From Parasphingopyxis algicola (GTDB lineage Bacteria > Pseudomonadota > Alphaproteobacteria > Sphingomonadales > Sphingomonadaceae), in assembly GCF_013378075.1 (NCBI RefSeq), contig NZ_CP051131.1:2802501-2866500 (forward strand): a stretch of DNA of 64,000 nucleotides, read 5' to 3'. Below the pieces are notes generated by a model. That model had not been told where the DNA came from and made no database searches. It worked only from the letters and a program-made list of their open reading frames with translations. This document shows positions 39,937 to 64,000 of the stretch, one piece after another. The translations under genes were made by a program, and so were the position numbers. Positions within the stretch are counted from its first letter, which is position 1; each line of letters starts with the position of its first letter.

Positions 39937-40449
39937 TCAGCGCAGGGTCTCGCCGGGCGTGAAGGCCGGATCCTTTGGGCTGATCTCGGTCGCGACCCGC
40001 CATTCCTCGCACAGCGTGCGTTTGTAGAGCGCACCGTCCCGGAACCAGTGCCAGGTCCGCGAGCGCCGGTCGCCGGTCTCGCCCATGACGATGATCTCGA
40101 CGAAATACGCGCCCGGTTCGTCCCGGCGGGTGAGGTTGAGGAGCAGGACATCGTCGTCCGTCTCCCAGGCATAGCCGTGAAAGGTCGGCATGTCCCACCA
40201 GAGCTTCCCGTCGCGGTAGACGCCGGGCAGCCGCGCGCGATATTCGCGGCCGTCGTCCCAGGTGAAGAGGTTGTGCTGGATATAGGCGGCCTCGCCGGTG
40301 CGCGGGAACTCGCAGACGATCCGGGCTTCATGGCGGTCCAGCTCCGCGCCTTCGGCATCGATATGGCGGTACGCGCCCTCCCATACGCCCTCATGTTCGA
40401 GCATGGCCGGCATCAGCCCGTCCAGTATCCGATCCCCGGCTTCCGGCAT
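39937..40449 (-). CDS. DUF3598-like protein (paralogue 1)
   Basis: A 170-residue protein resembling DUF3598-type, lipocalin-like proteins. Conserved stretches are HEGVWEGAYRHID, YRDGKLWWDMPTFHGY and RTWHWFRDGALYKRT. The same pattern occurs in 55666-56163, in the catabolic operon (HEGVWDGTYSYFD, YRDGRLWWDN, RTWHWIRDGRLETRT), so the two are paralogues. It diverges from the LysR gene with 100 bases between, and might be its target. It has no signal peptide. It probably binds a hydrophobic ligand; activity unknown. Confidence 0.7.
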   Translation of the reverse strand: MPEAGDRILDGLMPAMLEHEGVWEGAYRHIDAEGAELDRHEARIVCEFPRTGEAAYIQHNLFTWDDGREYRARLPGVYRDGKLWWDMPTFHGYAWETDDDVLLLNLTRRDEPGAYFVEIIVMGETGDRRSRTWHWFRDGALYKRTLCEEWRVATEISPKDPAFTPGETLR

Positions 40450-40549: not shown

Positions 40550-41515
40550 ATGGGCGACAGCCGTCTGCGTACGCGGTTCATCAAACCGTCGATGGATCCG
40601 AAAAAACTCCAGCATTTCCTGGCGGTCTACGATCTGCGCCATTTCGGCCGCGCGGCGACCGGCAATGGCGTGACGCAGCAGGCGATTTCGAAGAGCGTCA
40701 AGAAGCTGGAGGAGCAGCTCGGCGTCGAGCTGTTCGAGCGTGGCCCCTATGGCCCCGCGCCGACGATCTTCGCCCATTCGCTGGCCCGCCGGGCCAAGGT
40801 AATCCTGTCCGAAGCGCGGCTCGCCGCGGCCGAACTGAGCGCGCTGCGCGGCGCCGAGGAGGGCTATGTCCGCGCCGGTTTCGGCTGGTCTTTTGTGTCG
40901 CGGATCGCGCCCCAGACGGTCTTGCGGTACCGTCGCCGCCGCCCGAACATCAAGGTCAGCCTGTCGACGGGCGCTTCGGACAAATTGTTCGACCGGCTGT
41001 TGAACGGGGAGGTGGAATTCGTTGCCAGCTGCCCGCTTCCGGATTTTACCGTCGATCCGCTGCTGGAGGCCGAGACGCTGTTCGGCGATGTCGACGTCAT
41101 CGTGATGCGGCACGATCATCCGCTTGCGCACAGGCCGGACGTCACGCTGGCCGACCTCTCCGAGCAGACCTGGGCGACGTCGGGTACGTTGGGCGAGCGC
41201 TGGCGGAAGATCTGCGCGACCTTCCTCGCCGCGGGCGTCGAACCGCCGGTCAATACGATAGACATGGACTCGGTGGGTATCGCCAAGGCGATGATCGCGC
41301 AGAGCGATTGTATCGCCCTGCTCTCGACCGAGCTGGTGATCAACGAAACCATGGCCGGCCAGTTCCATACGCTGCGCCGGACGGAGTTCCCCTCGGCGCG
41401 CACGGCCATGCTCGTGACGCGGCGGAGTTCCGCCTTGCAGCCCGCCGCGCAGGCGCTGGTTCACGATCTGCTCGAGGTGACCAACGCGCTGCGGCCGGGA
41501 ACGCCGGAACTCTAG
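40550..41515 (+). CDS. LysR-family transcriptional regulator
   Basis: A 321-residue LTTR. The winged helix is MDPKKLQHFLAVYDLRHFGRAATGNGVTQQAISKSVKKLEEQLGVELFERG, with an unusual 10-residue lead. The effector domain covers about 100-300. ATG 40550 follows GGGAGAGAG; the frame is open further up. A possible promoter is TTGAAT (40499) and TATAGG (40523) with 18-base spacing. It lies between a DUF3598-like gene and the TonB receptor operon, so it may control either. The effector is unknown. Confidence 0.9.
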   Translation: MGDSRLRTRFIKPSMDPKKLQHFLAVYDLRHFGRAATGNGVTQQAISKSVKKLEEQLGVELFERGPYGPAPTIFAHSLARRAKVILSEARLAAAELSALRGAEEGYVRAGFGWSFVSRIAPQTVLRYRRRRPNIKVSLSTGASDKLFDRLLNGEVEFVASCPLPDFTVDPLLEAETLFGDVDVIVMRHDHPLAHRPDVTLADLSEQTWATSGTLGERWRKICATFLAAGVEPPVNTIDMDSVGIAKAMIAQSDCIALLSTELVINETMAGQFHTLRRTEFPSARTAMLVTRRSSALQPAAQALVHDLLEVTNALRPGTPEL

Positions 41516-41610: not shown

Positions 41611-41626
41611 ATTTGTCCGGACAAAT
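41611..41626. promoter_or_regulatory. shared operator, copy 1 (before TonB receptor operon)
   Basis: ATTTGTCCGGACAAAT, a perfect 16-bp palindrome 61 bases before the TonB receptor start. The same motif occurs at 49510-49525 (one mismatch) and 57551-57568 (perfect, extended to 18 bp). TTGTC/GACAA half-sites are typical of GntR/FadR-type repressors; this is inference. The gap 41516-41686 also has TTGACA at 41645 without a good -10. Confidence 0.75.
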
Positions 41627-41686: not shown

Positions 41687-44140
41687 ATGGTCGCCATCAA
41701 GAGGGTCTTTAAACTATCATTATCCGGTGCGGCGATGGGCGCCGCGCTGGTTTCGGCGCCGGCAATGGCGCAGGCCGACGGGGATGCGGCCCAGGTCGAT
41801 CCGGCCGGTCTCGGCGTCATCGTCGTCACCGCGCAGCGGCGCGAGGAAAACGTCCAGGACATTCCGATCGCGATTTCGTCCTTCTCGCCGGACGAACTCC
41901 AGTCGCGCGGCATCGGCAACACGCTCGAGCTGGGCGAGTTCATTCCGAACCTCATCGCGCAGAACAATACGGGTCTCGGCGCGTCGAACGCCTACTTTCT
42001 GCGCGGTATCGGCAATACGGAATCGATTGCCACCTTCGACCCCCCGATCGGCACCTATGTCGATCAGGTCTATCTCGCGCGCCAGAACGGCAACAATCTG
42101 AGCCTGTTCGATGTCGAGCGCGTCGAGGTGCTGCGCGGTCCGCAGGGCACCCTGTTCGGACGCAACACGACGGGCGGCGCGATCAGCATCGTCCTGCGCG
42201 AGCCGGGCGACGAGTTCGGCGGTTTTACCGAGATCGGCTATGGCCGGTTCGACCGTATCCTGGTGCGCGGTTCGATGGACATTCCCGTCGGCGACAATGT
42301 CGCGTTCAAGGTCAGCGGCTATTATCAGAATGACGACGGCTACGTCGAAAACATCACGACCGGCGATACGCTGAACGACAATGACGGCTTCGGCGCGCGG
42401 ATCGCGATGCGGCTTTCGACCGATATCGCCGAATGGAATATCGCCTATGCGCGGATCACCAATGACGGCGAGAATATCCTGAACTTCCCGTGCCGCGCGA
42501 TCGATCCGGCAACCCCGACCGATTGCGACACGCGGTTCGCCACCACGGGTTCGACCGAGGCGAGCGCCGGTCCGGTGCCCGGCATTTCGGGGCGCAAGGC
42601 CAATTACGGCCTCGGCAGCCAATCCGACATGGATCTCATCACGTCGAACCTCGAACTCGAACTGGGGGACGATATCTCGGTCGCCTTCATCACCGGCTAT
42701 ACGAACCTCGTCCAGCAGTTCAATCTGGACTTTTTCGACGGCCGGTTCGGGCCCAGCCCGGCCAATCCGTTCCCGGCGGTGATCGGATCGCCCTTCGGCG
42801 GCTTCAACATCTTCAACGATCAGGAAAACACCCAGATCACACAGGAGGTCCGGTTCAACGGATCGCTTGCCGACGGCCTGATCGATTTCGTCGCGGGCGG
42901 CTATTATTTCTACGAGGATACGAGCACCGATTTCGCCGACCTGTTCGGCGCGGTGGGCTTTCCCTTCCTGCTCGCCGACCGCGTGATCGACAATGATGCC
43001 GAGGCCTTCGCGCTCTACGGACAGGCGGACGTCCATGTCACCGACCAGATCACGCTGACGGCGGGCCTGCGCTGGACCGACGAGGAGAAGAACTTCCAGA
43101 TCCGCGACAATCGCCCGATCTGCAACGGCGATCAGTCGGCCCCGGGCTGTCTGAGCAATTTCAACCTCGTCGCGACGAACGGCACGCCGATCCCCGACTC
43201 CCAGTCGGTCAGCATCTTCACGCCGCGCTTCGCGGTGACCTATGAGCCGAACGACGATCTGCTGTTCTTCGTTTCGGCGACGCGCGGCTTCAAGTCCGGC
43301 GGCTGGAATGCGCGCGGCACGGCGGGCTCCGAACTGCTGCCGTTCGGCCCGGAAACGACCTGGAGCTATGAAGCGGGCTTCCGCAGCGAATTCTGGGACA
43401 ACCGGGCGCGCCTCAACGTGACGGCCTATTATGCCGATACGACGGGACTCCAGACGCCGTCGGCCTTCGTCCGGGGCAACGGGACCATCGCCTTCATCAC
43501 CCGCAACTTCGCCGATTACGAGAATTACGGCATCGAGGCGGAACTGACGCTGGCTCCGGCTGACGGGCTCAATATCTTTGCGAGCCTTGGCTGGCAGGAT
43601 GATCAGTACAATATCGATCGCAACGCCGATCCGGTCGACGAGTTCGGCGTGACCTCGGTCGCGGCGCAACAGGCGCAGTGCCAGGCGGCGCTTGCCGCGA
43701 ACATGGCGTCGGCGGCCTGCGGTGCCGGCATCGTGACCCTGGACGGCCGGATCGCCGAACCCGTTCGGACGCCCGACTGGTCGATCGCCGGCGGCGTCAG
43801 CTACGAAGTGCCGATCGGCGACAACTGGACGATCACGCCAGCGGTCAATGCCGCCTATCGCTCATCCTTCGAGACGGGGACGAGCAATGTCACCGTCTAC
43901 CAGTCGGCGCCGGGCACGTTCAACACGACCGGGAACGGCGATTTTGTGATCGGCTCGTTCAACGACGGCTATTTCGTCGTCAATGCCGGGATCACCCTGG
44001 CCGAGGTGGACGACGGACTGCAATTGTCGGTCACCTGCACGAACTGCTTCAGCGAAGATTACAATTCGTCGACCTTGGCGAACACGACCTATTACAACGC
44101 GCCGGGCACCTGGCTGGTCAGCGCCCGGTACGACTTCTAG
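41687..44140 (+). CDS. TonB-dependent outer membrane receptor
   Basis: An 817-residue receptor. A signal peptide ends APAMAQ, then GVIVVTAQRREENVQDIPIAISSF is the TonB-box and plug start. VEVLRGPQGTLFGRNTTGG lies in the plug, and the barrel ends in ARYDF. A cysteine pair (CTNC) near the C-terminus and PCRAID earlier are of interest. ATG 41687 follows GGGAGAAACG. It sits behind the shared palindrome at 41611 and 28 bases before the serine-hydrolase gene, so the three genes 41687-46807 form one operon. It most likely imports the compound oxidised by the flavoenzyme downstream. Confidence 0.95.
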   Translation: MVAIKRVFKLSLSGAAMGAALVSAPAMAQADGDAAQVDPAGLGVIVVTAQRREENVQDIPIAISSFSPDELQSRGIGNTLELGEFIPNLIAQNNTGLGASNAYFLRGIGNTESIATFDPPIGTYVDQVYLARQNGNNLSLFDVERVEVLRGPQGTLFGRNTTGGAISIVLREPGDEFGGFTEIGYGRFDRILVRGSMDIPVGDNVAFKVSGYYQNDDGYVENITTGDTLNDNDGFGARIAMRLSTDIAEWNIAYARITNDGENILNFPCRAIDPATPTDCDTRFATTGSTEASAGPVPGISGRKANYGLGSQSDMDLITSNLELELGDDISVAFITGYTNLVQQFNLDFFDGRFGPSPANPFPAVIGSPFGGFNIFNDQENTQITQEVRFNGSLADGLIDFVAGGYYFYEDTSTDFADLFGAVGFPFLLADRVIDNDAEAFALYGQADVHVTDQITLTAGLRWTDEEKNFQIRDNRPICNGDQSAPGCLSNFNLVATNGTPIPDSQSVSIFTPRFAVTYEPNDDLLFFVSATRGFKSGGWNARGTAGSELLPFGPETTWSYEAGFRSEFWDNRARLNVTAYYADTTGLQTPSAFVRGNGTIAFITRNFADYENYGIEAELTLAPADGLNIFASLGWQDDQYNIDRNADPVDEFGVTSVAAQQAQCQAALAANMASAACGAGIVTLDGRIAEPVRTPDWSIAGGVSYEVPIGDNWTITPAVNAAYRSSFETGTSNVTVYQSAPGTFNTTGNGDFVIGSFNDGYFVVNAGITLAEVDDGLQLSVTCTNCFSEDYNSSTLANTTYYNAPGTWLVSARYDF

Positions 44141-46972: not shown

Positions 46973-49462
46973 CTAGAACCCGGCGCTGACCGCCACGCCG
47001 AAATGGCGGCTGCGGCGCAGGGCGCCGACGAAGTTGCGGCGGAAGCTGTTATTCGCATCCGCATAGCGCAGGACCAGCGGTGAGCTGTCTTCGTTCGTCA
47101 GGTTGTTGACGTAGAAGTGCACCCGGTAATTGTCGTTCCGGAAGCCGAGCCGGGCATTGACCAGCGTCGTATCGCCATTGTCGATCAGGTTGTGGACCTG
47201 CGCGAAGACCCGGCTGCGATGGCTGATATTGGCGCCGGCGAAGAATTCCCAGCCGCTGCTGCCGAGATCTATCCGGTAATCGACATCGGCGAAGATCGTG
47301 TGCCGCGAGGTACGCGGAATCTGCCGTCCGTCGATCGAGCCGAAGAGCGACTGGCAACCGGCCTGGTTCGGGAACTGGTCGCCGATCGAGCAATCGACGA
47401 GGCCGTTGTCCCGGACATCGTTGAGCACGCCTTCATTCTCGTCGAACCCTTCGGTGAATTCGGGATCGAGCAGGGTGTAGTTGGCCGTGAACGTCCAGTT
47501 CGGGCTCGGCCGTACCTGGGCTTCGATCTCGAAACCCATGATCCGGGCATCGCCGGCATTGGTGATCGCCGAAACCGTGTTGTTCGCCGACTGGACATTC
47601 TGGGTCAGCTGATAGCCGTCGATCTCGTTCAGGAACGCGGCGAAGTTGAAGGTGAAATCGCCGAACGTGTTCTTCGTGCCGATCTCGTAGGAGATCGCAT
47701 CCTCCTGGTCGAAGGTGGGCACACCGGCGGCGATCGCGGTGATGCCGTTGAAACCGCCGGGCTTCGTGCCAGTCGCGAACACCGCGTAGAAGAGATTGTC
47801 GGGCGTCGCCTGCCAGCTCAGCGTGATACGCGGATCGAAGCTATTATACGTCTCGCGCCCGCTCGACTGGGCGAGGATCGGGCCGCCCTCATTCTGGTCG
47901 ACCGCCGAGAAGCGAATCCGCTCGGACGCGTATCGGCCTTCGACCGTCAGTTCGAGCGTGTCGGTGATGTCGAACCCGACCGAACCGTAAACGGCGAGGT
48001 TGCGGATATCGGTATCCGACGTGTCCCGCGAATTGGGTACGGACGGTCCGAAGAAGGGCGCGATGCTGCCGCAGATCGGATTGGCGGCGCACAGCGCGGC
48101 CTGCTGGGCGAAGGCGGCGCCAAAGCTGGCCCCCGCCTGCGCGGCGGCATTGGCCGGCACTTCGCGGACGTCCTGCGTGTTGATGCTCTGGTCGAAATAA
48201 TAGCCGCCGATCAGGAAACGGAACCGGTCGCCCTCGTAGAGCAGCTTGAGTTCCTGGCTGATGTCATGCGCATCGGTCAGCCCCTGAAAGGTGAAGTCAA
48301 CCGTCGCGCCGACATAGCCGAACGGGAAGATCGGACCGAACGGCCCGAAACCGATCGGCGCGCCCGCCGGAAAACCGCCCGGTGTGAACACCGCCGTCTG
48401 GAAGGCGGCCGGCGAATAATCGGCGTCGATGCTGAACAGCGTATCGCGGTCGTTATAGCCGGTGAGCGATACCAGGGTCAGCTCGTCGGTCAGGTCGAAC
48501 TCGATTCGCGACGACAGGTTGAGCGTGTCGATAAAGGTGCCGACCGGGCTGCCCGCGGCGAACTGGATGCTCGGATCCGCGGTGATCGGCTGCGGCTGCA
48601 ACGTGCCGCAGAAATAGCGGCCGCCGCCGCCATAGAGGGCGCCGTTGTCGAAGATGCAGTTGTTCGCTGTCGCGGGGATCGAAAAGAGCGCGGCCTGGCC
48701 GTCATCGACCTCCGAATAATAGCCGCGCAGGCGCACGCGCACCGGGCTGCCGACGGGCTCGTAGGCAATGACACCGGAGAAGGCGAGCGACTCTTCCTGG
48801 CCGAATGTGACGCCCGTGTTGGGGTTTTCATGCTCGCCGCCGAAATCGTAATAACGCACCTGCGCGCCGGCGGTCAGGCCTTCGGCGAGGCCGCCTTCGA
48901 TATAGCCGGTGATCTCGTAGCGATCGTCTTCCGAGGCATCGAGGCTCATCCGCCCGCCGAATTCGTCGCTCGGCGAACGGGTGATGATGTTGATCGCACC
49001 CGAATAGGTGTTGCGCCCATAGAGCGCCGATTGCGGGCCTTTGACGACTTCGAGCCGTTCGATATCGTCGACATTATAGTCGGAGATCGAACCGGTGATG
49101 TAGATGCCGTCGATAAAGGTCGCGACACCGGAATCGCCGAGAATGTTCGCCTGGCCGCGAATGACCGGGCGGTTGGAATCGCGCCCGAATTCATTGTCGA
49201 AGGTCAGGCCCGCGGTCGTGTTCGCGATATCGGTCAGATCCTGCAGGTTGAGCTGCTCGATCGTCTCCGCGGTCGCGACGGCCACAGAGACCGGCGCATT
49301 CTGCAGCGCTTCCTCGCGCCGGCGCGCCATCACGATGATCGGCTCGTTGCCGCCCGTCTCCGCGCCTTCGCCCGCGACCTGCGCACTGGCGGTGCCCGGC
49401 AGCGCAAGTGCCGCGATACCCGCCGTCGTCGCGAGCAATAATCCCTTGTTCCGTGATGTCAT
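46973..49462 (-). CDS. TonB-dependent outer membrane receptor
   Basis: An 829-residue receptor. The signal peptide ends TASAQVAG, then PIIVMARRREEALQNAPVSVAV begins the plug. VVKGPQSALYGRNTYSGAINI follows, and the barrel ends in VSAGF. It is of the class common in sphingomonads for complex organic substrates. ATG 49462 follows GGGAGGGACTT. The shared palindrome copy 2 is 48 bases upstream, so this gene and the 41687 receptor are likely co-regulated. It is convergent with the flavoenzyme operon. Confidence 0.95.
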   Translation of the reverse strand: MTSRNKGLLLATTAGIAALALPGTASAQVAGEGAETGGNEPIIVMARRREEALQNAPVSVAVATAETIEQLNLQDLTDIANTTAGLTFDNEFGRDSNRPVIRGQANILGDSGVATFIDGIYITGSISDYNVDDIERLEVVKGPQSALYGRNTYSGAINIITRSPSDEFGGRMSLDASEDDRYEITGYIEGGLAEGLTAGAQVRYYDFGGEHENPNTGVTFGQEESLAFSGVIAYEPVGSPVRVRLRGYYSEVDDGQAALFSIPATANNCIFDNGALYGGGGRYFCGTLQPQPITADPSIQFAAGSPVGTFIDTLNLSSRIEFDLTDELTLVSLTGYNDRDTLFSIDADYSPAAFQTAVFTPGGFPAGAPIGFGPFGPIFPFGYVGATVDFTFQGLTDAHDISQELKLLYEGDRFRFLIGGYYFDQSINTQDVREVPANAAAQAGASFGAAFAQQAALCAANPICGSIAPFFGPSVPNSRDTSDTDIRNLAVYGSVGFDITDTLELTVEGRYASERIRFSAVDQNEGGPILAQSSGRETYNSFDPRITLSWQATPDNLFYAVFATGTKPGGFNGITAIAAGVPTFDQEDAISYEIGTKNTFGDFTFNFAAFLNEIDGYQLTQNVQSANNTVSAITNAGDARIMGFEIEAQVRPSPNWTFTANYTLLDPEFTEGFDENEGVLNDVRDNGLVDCSIGDQFPNQAGCQSLFGSIDGRQIPRTSRHTIFADVDYRIDLGSSGWEFFAGANISHRSRVFAQVHNLIDNGDTTLVNARLGFRNDNYRVHFYVNNLTNEDSSPLVLRYADANNSFRRNFVGALRRSRHFGVAVSAGF

Positions 49463-49509: not shown

Positions 49510-49525
49510 ATTTGTCCAGACAAAT
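49510..49525. promoter_or_regulatory. shared operator, copy 2 (before TonB receptor)
   Basis: ATTTGTCCAGACAAAT, one mismatch from the perfect palindrome seen at 41611 and 57551. It lies 48 bases before the leftward receptor start, in a 127-base gap. The flanks (AAAATTTGTC) and the GTTTTGGGAG leader near the ATG also match the 41687 receptor leader. Confidence 0.72.
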
Positions 49526-50784: not shown

Positions 50785-51243
50785 ATGAAAAATATTGACG
50801 AAACCGATCGCCGCATTCTCGGCCTGCTGCAACAGGATGCGACGCGGTCGCTGGAGAGCATCGGCGAGACGCTGTCGCTGTCGGTCAACAATGTTTGGCG
50901 GCGGGTGAAGCGGCTCGAGGCGGACGGCGTGATCGCGCGGCGGGTCGCACTGATCGATCCCGAGGCGGTCGGGCTCGCCGTCACCGTGTTCGTCGCGATC
51001 AAGACCAGCGATCACAGCGAGGAATGGCTCGAAGCGTTCGCCGAGGCCGCGCGGGCATTGCCCGAAGTGGTGGAACTCTACCGCATGGCCGGCGATGTCG
51101 ATTATTTCGTCAAGCTGCTGGTTCGCGACGTCGGCGATTACGACCGGGTCTATCGCAAGCTGATCGCGACCGCGCCGATGAGCGATGTCAGCGCGAGTTT
51201 CGCGATGGAGCGGATCAAGTTCGACACCGCAGTGCCGCTTTGA
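50785..51243 (+). CDS. Lrp/AsnC-family transcriptional regulator
   Basis: A 152-residue regulator: MKNIDETDRRILGLLQQDATRSLESIGETLSLSVNNVWRRVKRLEADGVI is the AsnC-type HTH; the C-terminal RAM domain spans about 65-150 with AGDVDYFVKLLVRD. ATG 50785 fits the family start; the frame is open upstream without homology. It diverges from the PLP enzyme, which it probably controls in response to an amino acid. Confidence 0.92.
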   Translation: MKNIDETDRRILGLLQQDATRSLESIGETLSLSVNNVWRRVKRLEADGVIARRVALIDPEAVGLAVTVFVAIKTSDHSEEWLEAFAEAARALPEVVELYRMAGDVDYFVKLLVRDVGDYDRVYRKLIATAPMSDVSASFAMERIKFDTAVPL

Positions 51244-51365: not shown

Positions 51366-52541
51366 TTAAGCCGCCGCCCCCGCCTTCTTGAGCGTCGCGA
51401 TCTCGTCCGCCGAATAGCCGAGACCCGCCAGCACGGCATCGCTCTGATCGCCGGGTTCGGGCAGCGTATCCGGCGCTCCGGTGCGCACGCCCGCCATGTC
51501 GATAGGGAGGACCGGCAGCTGTACGGTTCGGCCGTCGGTCAGCGTGACATCCTGCAGCCCGCCGCTCGCGGCGAGGTGCGGATCGTCGAACAGTTCCTCG
51601 GGCTTGCCGATAGGCGCGAAGGGCAGGCCGGTGCCGTCGAGCTTCGCGATCAGTTCGTCCCGCGTGAACGTCTTCATCAGGTCGCGGATCTCGGGCATGA
51701 TCTCCTCGCGCGCTTCGACCCGGGCGTTGTTCTCGCGCAGTTCCTCTCGCGCCCAGAGATCGTCGAGCCCGAACAGCGCACAGAATTTTTCCCATAGCGC
51801 ATCGGTGACGACGCCGATGAACACCGGCTCGTCGGCGGTCTCGAAGACGTCGTAGATCGCCCAGGCGGAGACGCGCGCCGGCATCGGCGCCGCCGCCCGA
51901 CCGGTCACCGCCTTTTGCGCCATATGCTGGCCGACCAAATAGACGGTCGTTTCGAACAGCGAGGCCTGCACCTTCTGTCCGCGCCCGGTGCGGTGGCGTT
52001 CCTCGAGCGCGGCGAGGATCGCGATGACGCCGAACATGCCGCCGGTCACGTCGATGACGCTCGCCCCCGCGCGCAGTGGCCGGCCCGGCGGGCCGGTCAT
52101 ATAGGCGAGCCCGCCCATCATCTGCGCGACCTCGTCGAGCGCTGTCCGGTTTTCATAGGGCCCGGGCAGGAAGCCCTTTTCCGAGCAGTAGATGAGCTTC
52201 GGGTTGGTTTCGGCCAGCGCCTCATAACCGAGGCCGAGTTTCTCCATCGCGCCGGGGCGGTAATTCTCGATCAGGATATCGGCGCTGTCGGCCAGCTTCT
52301 TCGCCGCGACGAGGCCCTGCGGGTCTTTCAAGTTCAGGCAGATGCTCTGCTTGTGCCGGTTGTACATCGGGAAATAGCCGCCGCCCGAGCCGAGCAGCCG
52401 CCGCGTCCGGTCCCCGCCGACCGGCTCGACGCGGATCACCTCGGCGCCGAGTTCGGCGAGGATCGCTCCCGCCGCGGGCCCCATGACCATATGGGTGAAT
52501 TCGACGACGCGGAGCCCCGCCAGCGGTCCATCGGTCTTCAT
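51366..52541 (-). CDS. CaiB/BaiF family CoA-transferase
   Basis: A 391-residue family III CoA-transferase. GLRVVEFTHMVMGPAAGAILAELGAEVIRVEP is the N-terminal signature, and ENRTALDEVAQMMGG carries the catalytic Asp136 that forms the acyl anhydride. GGMFGVIAILAALEERHRTGRGQ is a conserved core helix. It moves CoA between carboxylic acids. Its ATG overlaps the lyase stop (ATGA), so the pair are coupled. A transferase with an HMG-CoA-lyase-type enzyme suggests activation of a 3-hydroxy-3-methyl or citramalate-like acid before cleavage. Confidence 0.93.
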   Translation of the reverse strand: MKTDGPLAGLRVVEFTHMVMGPAAGAILAELGAEVIRVEPVGGDRTRRLLGSGGGYFPMYNRHKQSICLNLKDPQGLVAAKKLADSADILIENYRPGAMEKLGLGYEALAETNPKLIYCSEKGFLPGPYENRTALDEVAQMMGGLAYMTGPPGRPLRAGASVIDVTGGMFGVIAILAALEERHRTGRGQKVQASLFETTVYLVGQHMAQKAVTGRAAAPMPARVSAWAIYDVFETADEPVFIGVVTDALWEKFCALFGLDDLWAREELRENNARVEAREEIMPEIRDLMKTFTRDELIAKLDGTGLPFAPIGKPEELFDDPHLAASGGLQDVTLTDGRTVQLPVLPIDMAGVRTGAPDTLPEPGDQSDAVLAGLGYSADEIATLKKAGAAA

Positions 52542-53467
52542 GCCGCCTCCCGGAAGCCGAGCGGCAGACCCGCATCGGGCGTAAATCCGTAGAGCGGTTC
52601 GCCGGGCAGTGCCTCGGCGACGATCTCGCGCACCTTTAGCAGCTTTTCGAGGTCGATCCCGGTCTCGTATCCCATGGCTTCGAGCATGAAGACGAGATCC
52701 TCGGTCACGATATTGCCCGACGCACCGGGTGCGAACGGGCATCCGCCCAACCCGCCGAGCGAGGCGTCGAAGGTGGTGATCCCCTCCTCGAGCCCGGCCA
52801 CGACATTCGCGAGACCGAGCCCGCGGGTGTTATGCAAATGCAGCGTATTGAGCTTGTCGGCGCCCACCGCCGCCTTCACCTTGCGCACGAGCCGCCGCAC
52901 ATGTTCGGGGTTGGCATAGCCGGTTGTGTCCGAGAGGCCGACCTCTGCGACACCGGCTTCCATCGACGCTTCGGCGAGCCGGACGACCTGGTCCTCGCTG
53001 ACCGGTCCTTCGATCGTGCAGCCGAAGGCGGTCGACAACCCGACCTCGAAATGCGGACGCGCGCCTTTGGACTGGGCGGCGACGAGCTCGGCGATCGCGC
53101 GGATCTCGGCCAGCATCGCCGGATGGTCCTTGCGGACATTGGCGATGCTGTGCGTTTCGGACATCGAGAAGGGGATCGACATCTTGTCGACTCCTGCCGC
53201 GATAGCGCGCTCCGCGCCTTTCAAGTTGGGGATCAGCGCGACGACGTCGAGGTTCGGCAGCGTCTTGGCATAGGCGACCAGTTCTGCCGTGTCGGCCATT
53301 TGCGGCAGCAGTTTGGGCGGCACGAAACTGCCCACTTCGATCTCGCCGACGCCGGCCTCGGCCTCGGCCTTGATCCAGGCCTTCTTGGCGTCGAGCGGCA
53401 TCACCCGGTCGATGCTTTGCAGCCCGTCGCGCGGGCCGACTTCGGAGATGTGTATCTTCTGATTCAT
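52538..53467 (-). CDS. HMG-CoA lyase-family enzyme
   Basis: A 309-residue TIM-barrel lyase. The metal site has ISEVGPRDGLQ and LHLHNTRGLGLANVVAG (H-x-H); the catalytic cysteine is in GGLGGCPFAPGASGN. The family includes 3-hydroxy-3-methylglutaryl-CoA lyase and related (R)-citramalyl-CoA-cleaving enzymes. Products would be acetyl- or acyl-CoA plus a ketoacid. ATG 53467 follows GGAGCAG. It overlaps the CoA-transferase gene and follows leuD after a REP-bearing gap of 205 bases. Context argues for a catabolic substrate other than leucine. Confidence 0.9.
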   Translation of the reverse strand: MNQKIHISEVGPRDGLQSIDRVMPLDAKKAWIKAEAEAGVGEIEVGSFVPPKLLPQMADTAELVAYAKTLPNLDVVALIPNLKGAERAIAAGVDKMSIPFSMSETHSIANVRKDHPAMLAEIRAIAELVAAQSKGARPHFEVGLSTAFGCTIEGPVSEDQVVRLAEASMEAGVAEVGLSDTTGYANPEHVRRLVRKVKAAVGADKLNTLHLHNTRGLGLANVVAGLEEGITTFDASLGGLGGCPFAPGASGNIVTEDLVFMLEAMGYETGIDLEKLLKVREIVAEALPGEPLYGFTPDAGLPLGFREAA

Positions 53468-53515
53468 TCTGCTGCTCCGGCCATCACAGATAGGCCTGTC
53501 ATTCTGTTCGCTAGG

Positions 53516-53654
53516 ACCAATCCTCCCCCGCAAGGGGAGGGGGACCACGAAGTGGTGGAGGGGTATCCCGGCTGGCGCGGTGTAAAAGGCGAATGGTGAT
53601 ACCCCTCCGTCAGCCTTGCAGGCTGCCACCTCCCCTTGCAGGGGAGGATTGACC
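53516..53654. repeat. REP-like inverted repeat inside an operon
   Basis: Ends ACCAATCCTCCCCCGCAAGG (from 53516) and CTTGCAGGGGAGGATTGACC (to about 53654) are near complements. Inner arms GGAGGGGTATC (about 53557) and GATACCCCTCC (about 53598) also pair. It is a mobile-type palindromic element inserted between leuD and the lyase gene, and could weaken or stabilise the transcript there. Confidence 0.8.
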
Positions 53655-53672
53655 AAATAGCCTCTATAATGG

Positions 53673-54290
53673 TCATGCACGGTCTCCCAGGTAAATCCAC
53701 GGCCGGGCCTTGCGGTCCGCCGCCTGCCATATGGCGATGTCCTCGGCATTTTTGAGCGTCAGGTCGATCGCATCGAGCCCTTCCAAGAGCATCGCCTTAG
53801 CTTCCTCGCCGATATCGAATGCCCAGCTGCGCCCGTCGGGCAGCGTGATCGTCTGGGCGGGCAGGTCGATGGTGACGGGCGCGTCCGCGGCGGCGATGGC
53901 CTTGATATCATCGCGCTCCAACGCGGCGGGCAGCACGCCGTTCCGCACGCAATTGCCCGCGAAGATCGGCGCGAAACTCTCGGCGATGATCGCGCGGATG
54001 CCATATTCGGCCAGCGCCCAGACCGCATGTTCGCGGCTCGACCCGCAACCGAAATTGCGGCCGCCGAGCAGGATCTGCGTTTCGGCATGTTCGGGCCGAT
54101 TGAGCACGAAATCCGGGTTCGGTTTGCGCCCGCCGATCTTCGTGTAGCGCTGCCCGGCGAACAGCCCGTCGGCGATCCCCGTCTTGCCCGTGCTCGTCAT
54201 CTCGCGCGAGGGGATGATCTGGTCGGTATCGACATTGTCGCGGATCATCGGCGCGGGGAGAGCGGTGAGTGTGGTGAGCGGTTCAGCCAT
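53673..54290 (-). CDS. leuD: LeuD-type hydratase small subunit
   Basis: A 205-residue swivel subunit of the isopropylmalate/citramalate isomerase family: DNVDTDQIIPSREM, GGRNFGCGSSREHAVWALAEYGIRAI, and FAPIFAGNCVRNGVLP are all present. ATG 54290 shares its first base with the last base of leuC's stop (TGATG), so both subunits are made together. No leuA or leuB lies nearby, and the neighbours are a CoA-transferase and a lyase. It may therefore hydrate citraconate- or alkylmaleate-type acids rather than serve leucine synthesis. Confidence 0.93.
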   Translation of the reverse strand: MAEPLTTLTALPAPMIRDNVDTDQIIPSREMTSTGKTGIADGLFAGQRYTKIGGRKPNPDFVLNRPEHAETQILLGGRNFGCGSSREHAVWALAEYGIRAIIAESFAPIFAGNCVRNGVLPAALERDDIKAIAAADAPVTIDLPAQTITLPDGRSWAFDIGEEAKAMLLEGLDAIDLTLKNAEDIAIWQAADRKARPWIYLGDRA

Positions 54291-55669
54291 CAGCGTACCT
54301 CCCGCGGATCGGCGATGGCACCTGCAAGCGCGCTCGCCGCGACGGTTTCGGGGCTGGCGATATGAGTCTTCACATTCGGGCCTTGGCGGCTTTCGAAATT
54401 GCGGTTGGTCGAGGAGATTACGCGCGATCCGTCGCCGAAACTCTCGCCGCCGGCGTAAAAGCACATGGAGCAGCCGCTTTCGCGCCATTCGAACCCGGCG
54501 TCGAGAAAGATCCGGTCGATCCCTTCCTCCTCCGCCGCGCGTTTCACATGGCTCGATCCGGGCACGCAGATCGCCGTGACGCCGTCGGCGATACGCTTGC
54601 CCTTGAGCAGCGCCGAGGCGCGGCGCAGGTCGGAGAGCCGGCTGTTGGTGCAGCTGCCGATAAAGGCGGCATCGATGGCGAGCCCCTTGAGCGGTTGGCC
54701 GGGTTCGAGCGCCATATATGAGAGCGGCCGAGCCTCGGCATCCTCGGGCACATGGCCGTCGATCCTGACACTGGCCTCGGGGCTGGTGCCCCAGCTGACC
54801 ATTGGCCGGATGGCCGCTGCGTCGATGGCGATCTCGGCGTCGAACCGCGCGCTGGAACCGCTCTTCAATGTTCGCCAATGGGCGAGCGCCGCCTCCCATT
54901 GGTCGCCCTTCGGCGCATAGCGGCGGCCGTCGAGCCAGGCATAGGTCTTGTCGTCGGGCGCGATGAACCCGCTCATCGCCGAAAATTCGGTCGCCATGTT
55001 GCAGAGCGTCATGCGCCCTTCCATCGACAGCGCCTCGACCGCTTCGCCCGCAAATTCGACGGCATGGCCCTTGCCGCCTGCCGCTCCATGCTCCGCGATC
55101 AGCGCGAGGATCATGTCCTTGGGCGTGACGCCGAACGGAAGCGCGCCTTCCAACGTCACCCGCATGGATTTCGGCTTTTCGAGCCGCAGCGTGCCCGTCG
55201 CCATCGCATGTTCGGCCTCGGACGAGCCGATGCCCCAAGCCAGCGCGCCGAATGCGCCTTGCGTGCAGGTATGGCTGTCGGGCGCGATCAGCGTACAGCC
55301 GGGCAGCACGATGCCGAGCTCGGGCGAGATCACATGGACGATGCCCTGATCGGGATCGGTGACGTCGAACAGCGTGATGCCTGCCGCCTTGGCCGCCGCC
55401 CGCAATTCGGTGATGAATATCTGCCCGCCCGGCATCAAGGTCCGGTCGCCGCGTCCCGGCCGGGTGTCGACGATATGATCGGCCACCGCGAAAACGCGGG
55501 ATGGATCGGCGACCTTCCGCCCGGTTTCGGCGAGCGCATTGAGCGCCGCGGGTCCCGTGCGCTCGTGCAGGAATATCCGGTCGATCGCGATCAGCTGCGC
55601 GCCGCCGGCAAGGTCGGCCGCGACATGGCTGTCCCACAGCCTGTCGAAGAGGCTGGCCTGGCCGGTCAG
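54290..55669 (-). CDS. leuC: LeuC-type hydratase large subunit (CTG start)
   Basis: A 459-residue aconitase-fold subunit. The 4Fe-4S cysteines lie in FIGSCTNSR and GCSMCFYAGG; PDSHTCTQGAFGALAWGIGSSE is the active-site loop. Homology begins at SLFDRLWDSHV, upstream of the first GTG (55486). The only plausible start covering it is CTG 55669, which overlaps the preceding stop as CTGA and has TGGAGG seven bases before it. No ATG, GTG or TTG lies in frame between the upstream region and 55486. With LeuD it forms a hydratase/isomerase of a C5-C7 dicarboxylate. Confidence 0.9.
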   Translation of the reverse strand: MTGQASLFDRLWDSHVAADLAGGAQLIAIDRIFLHERTGPAALNALAETGRKVADPSRVFAVADHIVDTRPGRGDRTLMPGGQIFITELRAAAKAAGITLFDVTDPDQGIVHVISPELGIVLPGCTLIAPDSHTCTQGAFGALAWGIGSSEAEHAMATGTLRLEKPKSMRVTLEGALPFGVTPKDMILALIAEHGAAGGKGHAVEFAGEAVEALSMEGRMTLCNMATEFSAMSGFIAPDDKTYAWLDGRRYAPKGDQWEAALAHWRTLKSGSSARFDAEIAIDAAAIRPMVSWGTSPEASVRIDGHVPEDAEARPLSYMALEPGQPLKGLAIDAAFIGSCTNSRLSDLRRASALLKGKRIADGVTAICVPGSSHVKRAAEEEGIDRIFLDAGFEWRESGCSMCFYAGGESFGDGSRVISSTNRNFESRQGPNVKTHIASPETVAASALAGAIADPREVR

Positions 55670-56163
55670 GTCGCCGCCTCCATTTCCGCATCCATCGACC
55701 GCCAGTCCTTCGTCACGAACGTCTCCTGAATCGCTGTGCGGGTTTCGAGCCGGCCGTCGCGGATCCAGTGCCAGGTGCGGCAGCGGTTTTGTCCATCATC
55801 CGATAACTGGATCATCTCGTAAAGATAGAGTTCGGGATCGCCGGTGCGCTGCCAATAAAGCATCATCGTGCGGCTATACTCGTCGAGATCGACGGCCGAG
55901 GCCCAGCCCTTGATGAGATCATTGTCCCACCAGAGGCGCCCATCCCGATAGTCTGCCGGAAAATCGCGGATCTCGGTCCGGCCGTCGAGCCAGGTGTAGT
56001 GATTGGTCTGGTGATAGGGATGGGGCCCGTTATCGGGCAGGCGGCAGATCAGGCGCGAGGCATGTTCGTCCACCTTCTCGTTCGCCGCGTCGAAATAGCT
56101 GTAGGTGCCGTCCCAGACGCCTTCATGGCGCGCGAGCAGTGGCATGTCTTCGCGAATTCCCAT
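55666..56163 (-). CDS. DUF3598-like protein (paralogue 2)
   Basis: A 165-residue protein without a signal peptide, related to the 39937-40449 product through HEGVWDGTYSYFD, YRDGRLWWDN and RTWHWIRDGRLETRT. ATG 56163 starts two bases after the hydrolase stop (TGACAATG), and its own stop overlaps the leuC CTG. Its place in the middle of a catabolic operon implies a direct role, perhaps binding or isomerising an intermediate. Family function unknown. Confidence 0.75.
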   Translation of the reverse strand: MGIREDMPLLARHEGVWDGTYSYFDAANEKVDEHASRLICRLPDNGPHPYHQTNHYTWLDGRTEIRDFPADYRDGRLWWDNDLIKGWASAVDLDEYSRTMMLYWQRTGDPELYLYEMIQLSDDGQNRCRTWHWIRDGRLETRTAIQETFVTKDWRSMDAEMEAAT

Positions 56164-56165
56164 TG

Positions 56166-57530
56166 TCAGCTTTCCTTGTCGAGCAGGGCCCGATGCCAGG
56201 CTTGGGCAGCGCGCGCGCGAAGCAGGTCGCGATGTTCGGCTGCCAACCTTTCCGGTGTCAGGGCGGCGGGATCGAATGGCCGGGCATGTGCGGTATCGGC
56301 TTCGTACCAGGGTTCGAAAAAGTGGCGCGCGCGTACGACCTGCCAGGCGGTGGTAAGATAGGCGCCGAACCGGTCGGGGTCGAGGTCAGGATAGAGCCGG
56401 GCCGGATCGCCGGATAGCGGTGGCGGTACGACGGTACGGGCCGCGCCGAAATGTGCTGTGACCGCATCGATGACCGGAGCCCAGCCGACCCAGTCCTTGG
56501 GCGTCTCGCCGTTCCAACCGTCCGACAGGCCATGGCCGGGCAGATCCATAAAGAGCGCATCGGGCGCCGGATCTGTCGCGAGCGCGCGGCCCGGCTCATG
56601 CAGATGCAATGTGTCGGCTTCGGGATTGCCGCGCCAATGGATCAGGCCCTCGAAGCCGGCCACCGCCACGTGCAGGAATCCGCGATCCTTCGTCTCGGGC
56701 AATGCTCCGATCTGCGGATGATCGCCGGCGAACAGATGGTCGAGGCTGGCCTGCTGATGGTTTTCGGGCGTCGCGACCTTGCGCGCCTCCCAGCCCGCGG
56801 GCATCTCGCCCAGCCGGTCGATATGCTCCTGCAGCGGATCGCCGTCATAGGCGGTGATCAGGCAGGGCGGCATCACAGCATCGGGCGGCGGGATATCGCG
56901 CGGCGCGCGCAGCACGGCGCCGTACCCCGCCTGATAGGCATTGCCCGCATCCAGCATCTCGCGGACCACGGCATCGACCCGGTCCGGATCGTCATGCGCG
57001 ACCGTCAGCCGGTGTGTCTCGTCGGTCGCGAACCAGGGGAAGAACCAGCTCTGCTCGAGAATCCGGTTCCACAGCCAGGTCAGATGCTCGCCATAGTCGC
57101 TGGGGTGGAAGGGCGGCAGATAGGCGTCGCCGAACAGCGCCATCTCGTCCGGCGTCCAGACCGCATAGCCGCCCATCGCCACGCGCGTGAACCGCCCGGG
57201 CTGCTGTTTGATCGCCGTCATCAGGATGATTGCACCCGAATGGAAGCCGTAAGCCGCACAGCGATCAATTCCGAGCGCGTCCAGCAAGTCGTGCACGGCC
57301 CGTGCGAAATCATTGATGTCGGGATTGCCGGGCAGCGGGTCTGACTGGCCGAAGCCCGGCGTGTCGGGCGCGATGCAGGTGAAATGCGGCGCCCATGTCT
57401 CCATCAGCACCTCATATTCGGCCGAACTGCGCGGGCTCTGGTGCACCATCAGCAGGACCGGCCCCGAACCGGCCTTGCGGTAATGCACCGTGCGGTCGCC
57501 AACGCGGATGAAGTGACGGGTGATGATCAT
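56166..57530 (-). CDS. alpha/beta hydrolase with a second hydrolase-like half
   Basis: A 454-residue protein, long for the fold (usually 270-300). The first half has the oxyanion region VHQSPRSSAEY, DTPGFGQSDP and the elbow YGFHSGAIIL, where Ser follows FH rather than the usual GH. The second half repeats a strand-turn pattern, FMDLPGHGLSDGW at about 340-355, as if a second copy had degenerated. ATG 57530 follows AAGGAGGCG. It is first in the leftward operon, 20 bases from the shared operator. It probably hydrolyses an ester or lactone that enters the pathway. Confidence 0.82.
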   Translation of the reverse strand: MIITRHFIRVGDRTVHYRKAGSGPVLLMVHQSPRSSAEYEVLMETWAPHFTCIAPDTPGFGQSDPLPGNPDINDFARAVHDLLDALGIDRCAAYGFHSGAIILMTAIKQQPGRFTRVAMGGYAVWTPDEMALFGDAYLPPFHPSDYGEHLTWLWNRILEQSWFFPWFATDETHRLTVAHDDPDRVDAVVREMLDAGNAYQAGYGAVLRAPRDIPPPDAVMPPCLITAYDGDPLQEHIDRLGEMPAGWEARKVATPENHQQASLDHLFAGDHPQIGALPETKDRGFLHVAVAGFEGLIHWRGNPEADTLHLHEPGRALATDPAPDALFMDLPGHGLSDGWNGETPKDWVGWAPVIDAVTAHFGAARTVVPPPLSGDPARLYPDLDPDRFGAYLTTAWQVVRARHFFEPWYEADTAHARPFDPAALTPERLAAEHRDLLRARAAQAWHRALLDKES

Positions 57531-57550: not shown

Positions 57551-57568
57551 AATTTGTCCGGACAAATT
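57551..57568. promoter_or_regulatory. shared operator, copy 3 (between divergent catabolic operons)
   Basis: AATTTGTCCGGACAAATT, a perfect 18-bp palindrome between the starts at 57530 and 57636. It can control both operons at once. The same core lies before two TonB receptor genes (41611, 49510). A possible rightward -10 is TATAGA at 57599. Confidence 0.78.
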
Positions 57569-57635: not shown

Positions 57636-58310
57636 ATGAACGGTACGAAAATGGTCAGCGACGGAAAGACGGCGCGCGAGATATTCGAAGGCGTGATGGC
57701 CAATCCGGCGCGCAAGAAATTCGGCTTCGGCGAGAAGCTCGCCATCGTCAATGTCGATATCCAGCGCGCCTATACCGATCTCGAAACGTTCAAGACGGCC
57801 TATGAGACCGACCCCGACCAGATCGCCCATGTGAACCGGATTTCCGGGCTTGCGCGGGCGAACAGTATGCCCGTGATCTGGTCGCGTGTGGCCTATAAGG
57901 ACGATGCCGGCGATGCGGGCGTCTGGGGTACGCGGACAGATACCGAGGATAGTCTCCAGAACATCAAATATGGCAGCGAGCGGCACGAATTCGATCCGCG
58001 CTGCGCGATCGATCCGGACGACATGACCTTCACCAAGCGGATGCCGAGCGCGTTCTTTGAGACTCCGCTAGCCAGCTATCTGACATGGCACAAGGTCGAC
58101 ACGGTGGTGGTGACAGGCGGCTCCACCTCGGGCTGCGTGCGCGCAACGGCCGTCGATTCGCTTTCCCATGGCTATCGCACGATCGTCCCCATCGAGACCT
58201 GCGCGGACAAGCACGAAAGCTATCATTTCGCCAACCTCACCGACCTCCAGCTCAAATATGCCGATGTCGAGCCGGTTCAGGCGGTGATCGACTGGCTGGA
58301 GGCGCGCTGA
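57636..58310 (+). CDS. isochorismatase-like cysteine amidohydrolase
   Basis: A 224-residue cysteine hydrolase with the D-K-C triad: Asp41 (VNVDIQRAY), Lys134 (FTKRMPSAF) and Cys167 (TSGCVRATAVD). This resembles N-carbamoylsarcosine amidase and maleamate amidohydrolase (NicF-type). GGSTSGCVRATAVDSLSHGYR is the family's active-site loop. ATG 57636 has a weak ribosome site; it is first in the rightward operon. Its stop and the next start overlap (TGATG). It likely turns a half-amide into an acid plus ammonia. Confidence 0.87.
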   Translation: MNGTKMVSDGKTAREIFEGVMANPARKKFGFGEKLAIVNVDIQRAYTDLETFKTAYETDPDQIAHVNRISGLARANSMPVIWSRVAYKDDAGDAGVWGTRTDTEDSLQNIKYGSERHEFDPRCAIDPDDMTFTKRMPSAFFETPLASYLTWHKVDTVVVTGGSTSGCVRATAVDSLSHGYRTIVPIETCADKHESYHFANLTDLQLKYADVEPVQAVIDWLEAR

Positions 58311-63426: not shown

Positions 63427-64000
63427 CCCCGACCCTGCAGCATGCGATGAAACCCGAGCTGACGGTGGAAGAGGCCGCGCGCGGCCGGTTCGTCTCGGGT
63501 ATCCGCAGCCTGATCCTCAACGATCTCGCCGCCGATATGCGCGCCGGTTACGACAAGCGCGCCGAACCGGCATTCCGCCGCGAGCATGGCCGCGCGCCCG
63601 AAACGAGCCGCGAGGCGCATCTCGCGTTGCGCGGCGACCCGGCTTTCAACATCTACAGCGCGATGCGGGTCCAGGCGCAGAAGATGGTCTGGGCGAGCGT
63701 CGCCGATATCGTCGAACGCGATCTGGAGCGGATGGAAGCGGAAGCGGCGAAGGTTTCCGATGCGCCGGGCTCGCTGACGCTCGATGCCGATATGGCCGTG
63801 CCGCGCAATGTCGATGCGATCGACGTGCACCTGATGCCGGGCTCTTATACGCGCGGCGCGGATTCCCTCGAGGCCGGTGCGGTGTACGATCAGGGGCTGG
63901 CGGTCTTCTCGATGGGGCTGATGGGCGCCAATCTCGACGATATCGGGCTGTCGATGGCGCGCTATGTTCGCGGCAAATATCCGGACTTCGCGCCGCGCGA
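63423..64000 (+). CDS. probable SAM-dependent methyltransferase N-terminus (partial)
   Basis: The first 192 codons of a gene running off the right edge. It starts at ATG 63423, overlapping the preceding stop (ATGA), and so continues the operon. The visible part has helical YDKRAEPAFRREHGRAPETS and then DVHLMPGSYTRGADSLEAGAVYDQG and MARYVRGKYPDFAPR. That ending is how some class I methyltransferases lead into their SAM motif, which would begin just past the window. Assignment is from memory of such proteins and is tentative. Confidence 0.5.
   Translation, partial: MTPTLQHAMKPELTVEEAARGRFVSGIRSLILNDLAADMRAGYDKRAEPAFRREHGRAPETSREAHLALRGDPAFNIYSAMRVQAQKMVWASVADIVERDLERMEAEAAKVSDAPGSLTLDADMAVPRNVDAIDVHLMPGSYTRGADSLEAGAVYDQGLAVFSMGLMGANLDDIGLSMARYVRGKYPDFAPR

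Follow-up and report, generated by a model that had tools for sequence, protein, structure and literature searches.

Among proteins of solved structure, NagR (YvoA), which controls amino-sugar use in Bacillus subtilis, comes closest in sequence to the candidate repressor considered here (E about 5e-19 for 2wv0 and 4u0v). NagR is described as blocking transcription and as reading G-5 and G-4 of its operator through Arg38 and Arg48, with Gly69 anchoring the wing (PMC4333415). In HutC proteins, positions 28 and 39 of the HTH have been reported to correlate with the outer and central bases of the operator, in which GT and AC usually lie 4 nt apart (PMC4494728); by count, these positions correspond to residues 38 and 49 of NagR. 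The typical, rather than defining, HutC consensus is NyGTMTAKACNy, which has a TA centre. DasR of Streptomyces coelicolor, a more distant sequence match, is called a global regulator in a work that also speaks of HutC repressors (PMC4918961). For Sphingomonadales, a TonB-dependent transporter is among the predicted members of HutC regulons (PMC5343134).

We propose that a palindrome recurring in a 64,000-nucleotide stretch of the Parasphingopyxis algicola chromosome (the window) is very probably an operator, bound by a GntR repressor of the HutC subfamily whose gene lies at 82485-83222, and that this repressor would control a 55-kb catabolic regulon. Coordinates beyond 64000 continue the window numbering, and the genome position is the coordinate plus 2802500. 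The candidate gene, gntR (minus strand, chromosome 2884985-2885722), has a TTG start and lies 18.5 kb past the right edge of the window, within the 55-kb cluster. The original prediction had placed the regulator beyond that edge and had stated that the window holds no GntR gene, and both statements are supported: the genome has eight GntR-domain matches, six of them above the cut-off, and none is within the window. Judged from its sequence, the 245-aa protein belongs to the GntR superfamily and the HutC subfamily, with a GntR wHTH domain at the N-terminus (PF00392, residues 10-72, 70.9 bits against a cut-off of 27) and a UTRA effector domain at the C-terminus (PF07702, 65.9 bits against 23.8). 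The expectation of a GntR/FadR-type repressor is supported as to GntR and corrected as to FadR, the UTRA domain and the distance of 4 nt between GT and AC pointing to HutC. In the AlphaFold model (mean pLDDT 81.2, pTM 0.61), the effector domain resembles that of HutC 2pkh (Z 14.4, rmsd 2.9, 136 aligned), and effector-controlled DNA binding would be expected of the candidate from its family. The sequence TTGTCCGAC at the gntR start codon is coding sequence common to two close relatives and is not claimed as an operator.

The candidate and NagR share the wHTH and UTRA architecture and a palindromic operator with G at -4 (for NagR, PMC4333415), and Arg48 and Gly69 of NagR are retained as Arg46 and Gly67. 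The two proteins differ in that Arg38, the reader of G-5, is replaced by Thr at position 36 (27 of the 30 orthologs aligned have Thr or Ser there) and Met49 by an aromatic residue at position 47, Tyr or Phe in 30 of 30, and the operator here has T at -5 and a CG centre; from the sequences, these substitutions would match such an operator, which is consistent with this recognition and not proof of it. The arrangement GT-CCGG-AC has the 4-nt spacing of HutC operators, and the GntR protein would bind it. The TA centre is absent, 321 of 342 half-sites having C at -1, a figure that leans high because the sites were chosen at one mismatch or fewer to a CG-centred pattern. DasR is a HutC-subfamily match to the predicted fold (4zs8, Z 13.8; 9i0v, Z 13.6), these full-length rows having an rmsd near 14-15, since the relative placement of the two domains differs; its operator, TGGTCTAGACCA, differs from the palindrome here, and its targets differ from the cluster genes. 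The HutC histidine utilisation repressor is of the same subfamily, and a TonB-dependent transporter is common to the predicted Sphingomonadales HutC regulons and to the present cluster; the protein scores 94.4 bits on the TIGR02018 equivalog model and does not reach the cut-off of 220, and none of the cluster genes that were scanned could be recognised as serving histidine use.

The palindrome and the genes behind it

The 16-mer ATTTGTCCGGACAAAT occurs perfectly at 41611-41626 and 57552-57567 and with one mismatch at 49510-49525, as had been reported from inspection of the window, and the 18-mer AATTTGTCCGGACAAATT is a perfect palindrome at 57551-57568, in the gap between divergent genes. At three mismatches or fewer, the window holds three matches against 0.12 expected, with none of 100 shuffles giving three, and the 3.67-Mb chromosome holds 12 places against one for a reversed control pattern. 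A whole-genome scan with one mismatch allowed, which the original prediction had proposed, returned eight copies, all of them confined to 2844111-2899242, one 55-kb catabolic cluster, three inside the window and the remaining five to its right. By rough gene calls, all eight are intergenic, five in divergent gaps and three ahead of a single unit, and together they head 13 gene or operon starts. The recurrence of the palindrome is therefore real and extends beyond the three sites first noted, which would belong to a larger regulon than had been described. The flanks of the eight copies are unrelated (mean identity 0.26, largest 0.39), and a copied segment or repeat was rejected on this ground. 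Four places with two or three mismatches outside the cluster were set down to chance, cluster-gene homologs being absent from their 3-kb loci.

Operators were located by motif search and gene families by Pfam, with NCBIfam added for the plus-strand group from 57651. The 41611-41626 site lies 60 bp ahead of a plus-strand TonB-dependent receptor (41687-44140, relatives in 37 of 80 loci), which would form one unit with the following genes of beta-lactamase fold (44169) and flavin amine oxidase fold (45389). The one-mismatch site at 49510-49525 lies 47 bp ahead of a second TonB-dependent receptor on the minus strand (46973-49462, relatives in 18 of 80 loci). From the edges of the 57551-57568 palindrome there are 21 bp to the start codon at 57530 (minus) and 83 bp to that at 57651 (plus), so that, by rough gene calls, all four distances fall within the 20-90 bases first given. 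The minus-strand group 51366-57530, presumably one operon, comprises an alpha/beta hydrolase (56166), a protein without assigned family (55666), an aconitase/LeuC-like protein (54290), a LeuD-like protein (53673), an HMGL-like lyase (52538) and a family III CoA-transferase (51366). The small proteins 39937-40449 and 55666-56163, the latter without Pfam match, look alike by eye. The plus-strand group, likewise a putative operon, runs from 57651 to the window end at 64000 and on to about 64864, and encodes an isochorismatase-fold hydrolase, two PuuE-like proteins (below the model's cut-off), an aldehyde dehydrogenase, a VOC protein, a cupin and a methyltransferase.

Beyond the window, perfect operators lie at 68080, between the divergent genes 67294 and 68121, at 76423, between a DUF1838 gene (75437) and gene 76489 (no Pfam match), and at 77214, ahead of the core genes 77270-82476, which encode a CitE-like lyase, a MaoC hydratase, an acyl-CoA dehydrogenase and two CoA-transferases. 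Operators with one mismatch lie at 70531, between the methyltransferase genes 69276 and 70621, and at 96742, between 95910 and 96804, neither of which has a Pfam match. The DUF1838 protein (L013:12438-13388, relatives in 39 of 80 loci) and the product of gene 76489 (L013:13490-14173, membrane-like by eye, relatives in 46 of 80 loci) both look like members of the regulon whose part in it is unexplained. The cluster also holds a histidine kinase/receiver protein with an ethylene-receptor-like N-terminal domain (PF25487; 65668-67284, L013:2669-4285), which is operator-free upstream. In this genome, no operator at three mismatches or fewer precedes the genes at 83264-93476, an operon that may be unregulated or read through, or gntR itself. 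A copy in the regulator's own promoter, which had been suggested as a check, is thus missing here; yet the 12-mer with at most two mismatches stands ahead of gntR in 33 of 79 orthologs against 0.9% in controls, the count being anchored at the conserved Pro-Arg-Tyr and its control at the ORF start, with one of the 80 loci dropped (gene at the contig edge).

Conservation of the proposed operator and repressor in relatives

A named-genome scan gave 228 relatives, from which the best 80 loci, 51-95% identical, were retained; the nearest of these 80 is from Parasphingopyxis. The retained loci whose titles give an order or lower rank are all, we take it, from Sphingomonadales, and five are titled by phylum or class only. 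Within the 1.49 Mb of these best 80 of 228 loci, TTGTCCGGACAA has 192 matches at one mismatch or fewer, and 59 other palindromes of the same composition have at most 30, with a median of 1. The operator is found in 71 of the 80 loci and in all 58 of those of at least 20 kb. Although a rough caller assigned 96% of this DNA as coding, 171 of the 192 sites are intergenic, and 10 of the 21 scored as intragenic lie just upstream of gntR, where the caller probably over-extends. Conservation reaches outside the searched 12-mer, A standing at -8 in 313 of 342 half-sites. The genes behind the sites in these best 80 loci are mostly those of CitE-like lyases (67), DUF1838 proteins (41), 76489-type proteins (38) and TonB receptors (31 and 16); 30 of the 192 sites have no cluster-gene homolog within 400 bp, part of them preceding TonB genes missed in the first screen. 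The 134 proteins of the 80 loci that have no homolog in the cluster are of other families and do not reveal the substrate.

The same 298 family genomes, our own included, were searched for the 16-mer at one mismatch or fewer and for the regulator. Best E-values of the close orthologs run from 1.2e-160 to 6.8e-48 and are followed by a gap to 6.1e-36; the cut-off of 1e-45 was set after seeing this gap. The site occurs in 44 of the 298 genomes, the close ortholog in 38 and both in 37, that is, the site is present in 37 of 38 ortholog-bearing genomes against 7 of 260 others (Fisher 5.7e-39, uncorrected for relatedness, the genomes not being independent). Every genome with three or more sites has the ortholog, and the seven site-bearing genomes without it have just one or two copies each. 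The reversed control pattern was found in 4 of 298 genomes, one of them ortholog-bearing. This co-occurrence, with the confinement of the eight copies to one cluster, bears out the claim of a single regulon. The sole close-ortholog genome without a site, G132, has partly lost the cluster: its 19.9-kb locus (C1:1225000-1244900, L198) retains whole CoA-transferase, gntR and MmgE genes and partial PuuE-like, aldehyde dehydrogenase and TonB pieces, and no good operator was seen in the 19.9 kb viewed. In another genome, a second gntR-like copy is split into two adjacent pieces (G060:C1:135083-135810).

Some sites lie apart from the cluster. In G072, at a distance of about 0.4 Mb from gntR, a perfect operator separates the orthologs of 56166 and 57651, so that this target is retained even when unlinked. 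Nine of the 11 sites of this genome were viewed: three are clear cluster targets, one lies beside a weakly similar hydrolase and a TonB gene, and five (L168-L171 and L174, single-mismatch 16-mers far from gntR) have no recognisable cluster gene behind them and are either chance matches or targets that cannot be named. The original prediction would have been contradicted by frequent copies inside coding DNA or ahead of unrelated genes; this is not seen in the present genome, where all eight copies are intergenic and in one cluster, but could apply to the five sites of G072. The single sites viewed in G285, G023 and G005 head no clear cluster gene. Among distant homologs of the regulator (28-33% identity), none of 15 genomes has the 16-mer at one mismatch or fewer. 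In 11 distant-homolog neighbourhoods from 10 genomes (L187-L197), the 12-mer is nevertheless found with one mismatch in L188, L189 and L197 and with two in L192 and L196; these GTCCGGAC-like palindromes perhaps mark sister regulators whose operator is related. Palindrome-bearing and palindrome-free distant homologs were not told apart by the aromatic residue at position 47.

Promoter placement and the nature of the regulation

The CitE-like gene is preceded, in 44 of 67 loci, by a TTGAC that starts 18 nt upstream of the operator centre, which compares with about 0.5 per position over 223 sequences, and the present genome has the same placement; given the usual spacer, the operator would fill the interval between -35 and -10. 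In TonB genes related to 41687 the operator is placed further downstream, 12 of 30 cases having TTGAC 33 nt ahead of its centre. Both placements fit steric repression. No TTGAC peak was found before the DUF1838 (41), 76489-type (38) or 46973-type TonB (16) genes. When three window regions were scanned for consensus promoters, one site had a plausible promoter, another had none and the third had a match on the wrong strand, and at the 41611 site a weak promoter-like match ends at the first bases of the operator. For this regulon we infer binding, repression, an inducer and the extents of the operons as follows. A GntR dimer would bind AATTTGTCC|GGACAAATT with one wHTH per half-site, and the bound HutC-subfamily repressor (82485-83222) would block RNA polymerase at the promoters of the 55-kb catabolic regulon, which would take in the TonB receptors, the divergent hydrolase/aconitase-like module and the core operon for CoA-ester degradation. 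A pathway metabolite on the UTRA domain would then, as in the family, release the repressor, and uptake and degradation genes would be expected to switch on together.

The same protein and operator could act wholly or partly in activation, and the variable placement of the operator, with the -33 TTGAC in 12 of 30 TonB genes related to 41687 and three gene groups lacking a peak, would suit this; we consider it very unlikely, since the core-operon site would lie inside the spacer in those 44 of 67 loci, where it would block rather than recruit polymerase, NagR is described as a transcription blocker (PMC4333415) and the DasR work refers to HutC repressors (PMC4918961). As to the identity of the binding protein, the LysR gene at 40550 adjoins the first site and an Lrp gene lies at 50785, and the original prediction had already noted that proteins of these types usually bind other kinds of site. 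The site is present in 9 of 11 genomes with the LysR ortholog, as expected for a linked gene, but 35 of 44 site-bearing genomes have no LysR match at E 1e-45, and the Lrp match at E 1e-40 occurs in 63 genomes, 18 of which have the site. Both were rejected for co-occurrence poorer than the 37 of 38 of GntR, and we regard either as a highly improbable reader of the palindrome. It is hardly credible, too, that we are dealing with a repeat or a structural element that has no dedicated regulator: a perfect palindrome recurring in one region could suggest it, but the flanks are unrelated, the sites are biased to positions before genes and conserved ahead of orthologous genes across the order, they co-occur with GntR, and the unlinked target is kept in G072. 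Repression by the HutC-subfamily protein is the reading that we retain.

Predicted pathway and significance of the cluster

The core genes each occur in 61-71 of the best 80 of 228 loci. The set comprises a CitE-like protein (RipC-like, below cut-off), a MaoC protein (RipB-like, below cut-off), an acyl-CoA dehydrogenase, two family III CoA-transferases, two MmgE/PrpD proteins, a PaaK-like CoA ligase, an amidase, an SDR protein, a PuuE-like protein (below cut-off) and an enoyl-CoA hydratase, and suggests a route that opens a cyclic amide or imide, sheds nitrogen and, by way of CoA esters, cleaves a branched diacid. A more far-reaching reading, which we hold to be quite unlikely as a whole, is that the repressor switches an undescribed pathway, conserved throughout the Sphingomonadales, for degrading a cyclic nitrogen compound (imide or lactam). 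The PuuE-like hydrolases would then open the ring, the isochorismatase-fold and amidase enzymes would take off the nitrogen, and the aconitase-like, CoA-transferase, MaoC and CitE-like enzymes would cleave a branched C4-C6 diacid. In one bold form of this reading, dedicated TonB receptors would take up maleimide fragments that arise when tetrapyrroles (chlorophyll or bilin) are broken down.

Literature searches on the operator, the cluster, DUF1838, HutC of Sphingomonadales, Parasphingopyxis, MmgE in Novosphingobium, and GTCCGGAC with GntR found no description of this system, and PMC5343134 alone covered HutC of Sphingomonadales. The kind of switch is already known, and the operator set and what the cluster digests appear undescribed. 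The differences matched to those of NagR (Arg38 to Thr/Ser and Met49 to Tyr/Phe; G-5 to T and a CG centre) would provide a small case of recognition in the HutC family. A well-supported operator, a candidate repressor and a gene set are now defined for this large catabolic cluster, which is found again and again across the Sphingomonadales. The operator may help to locate more targets of the pathway in many genomes and, in a reporter assay, to recognise the inducer, which would offer a practical way to the substrate.
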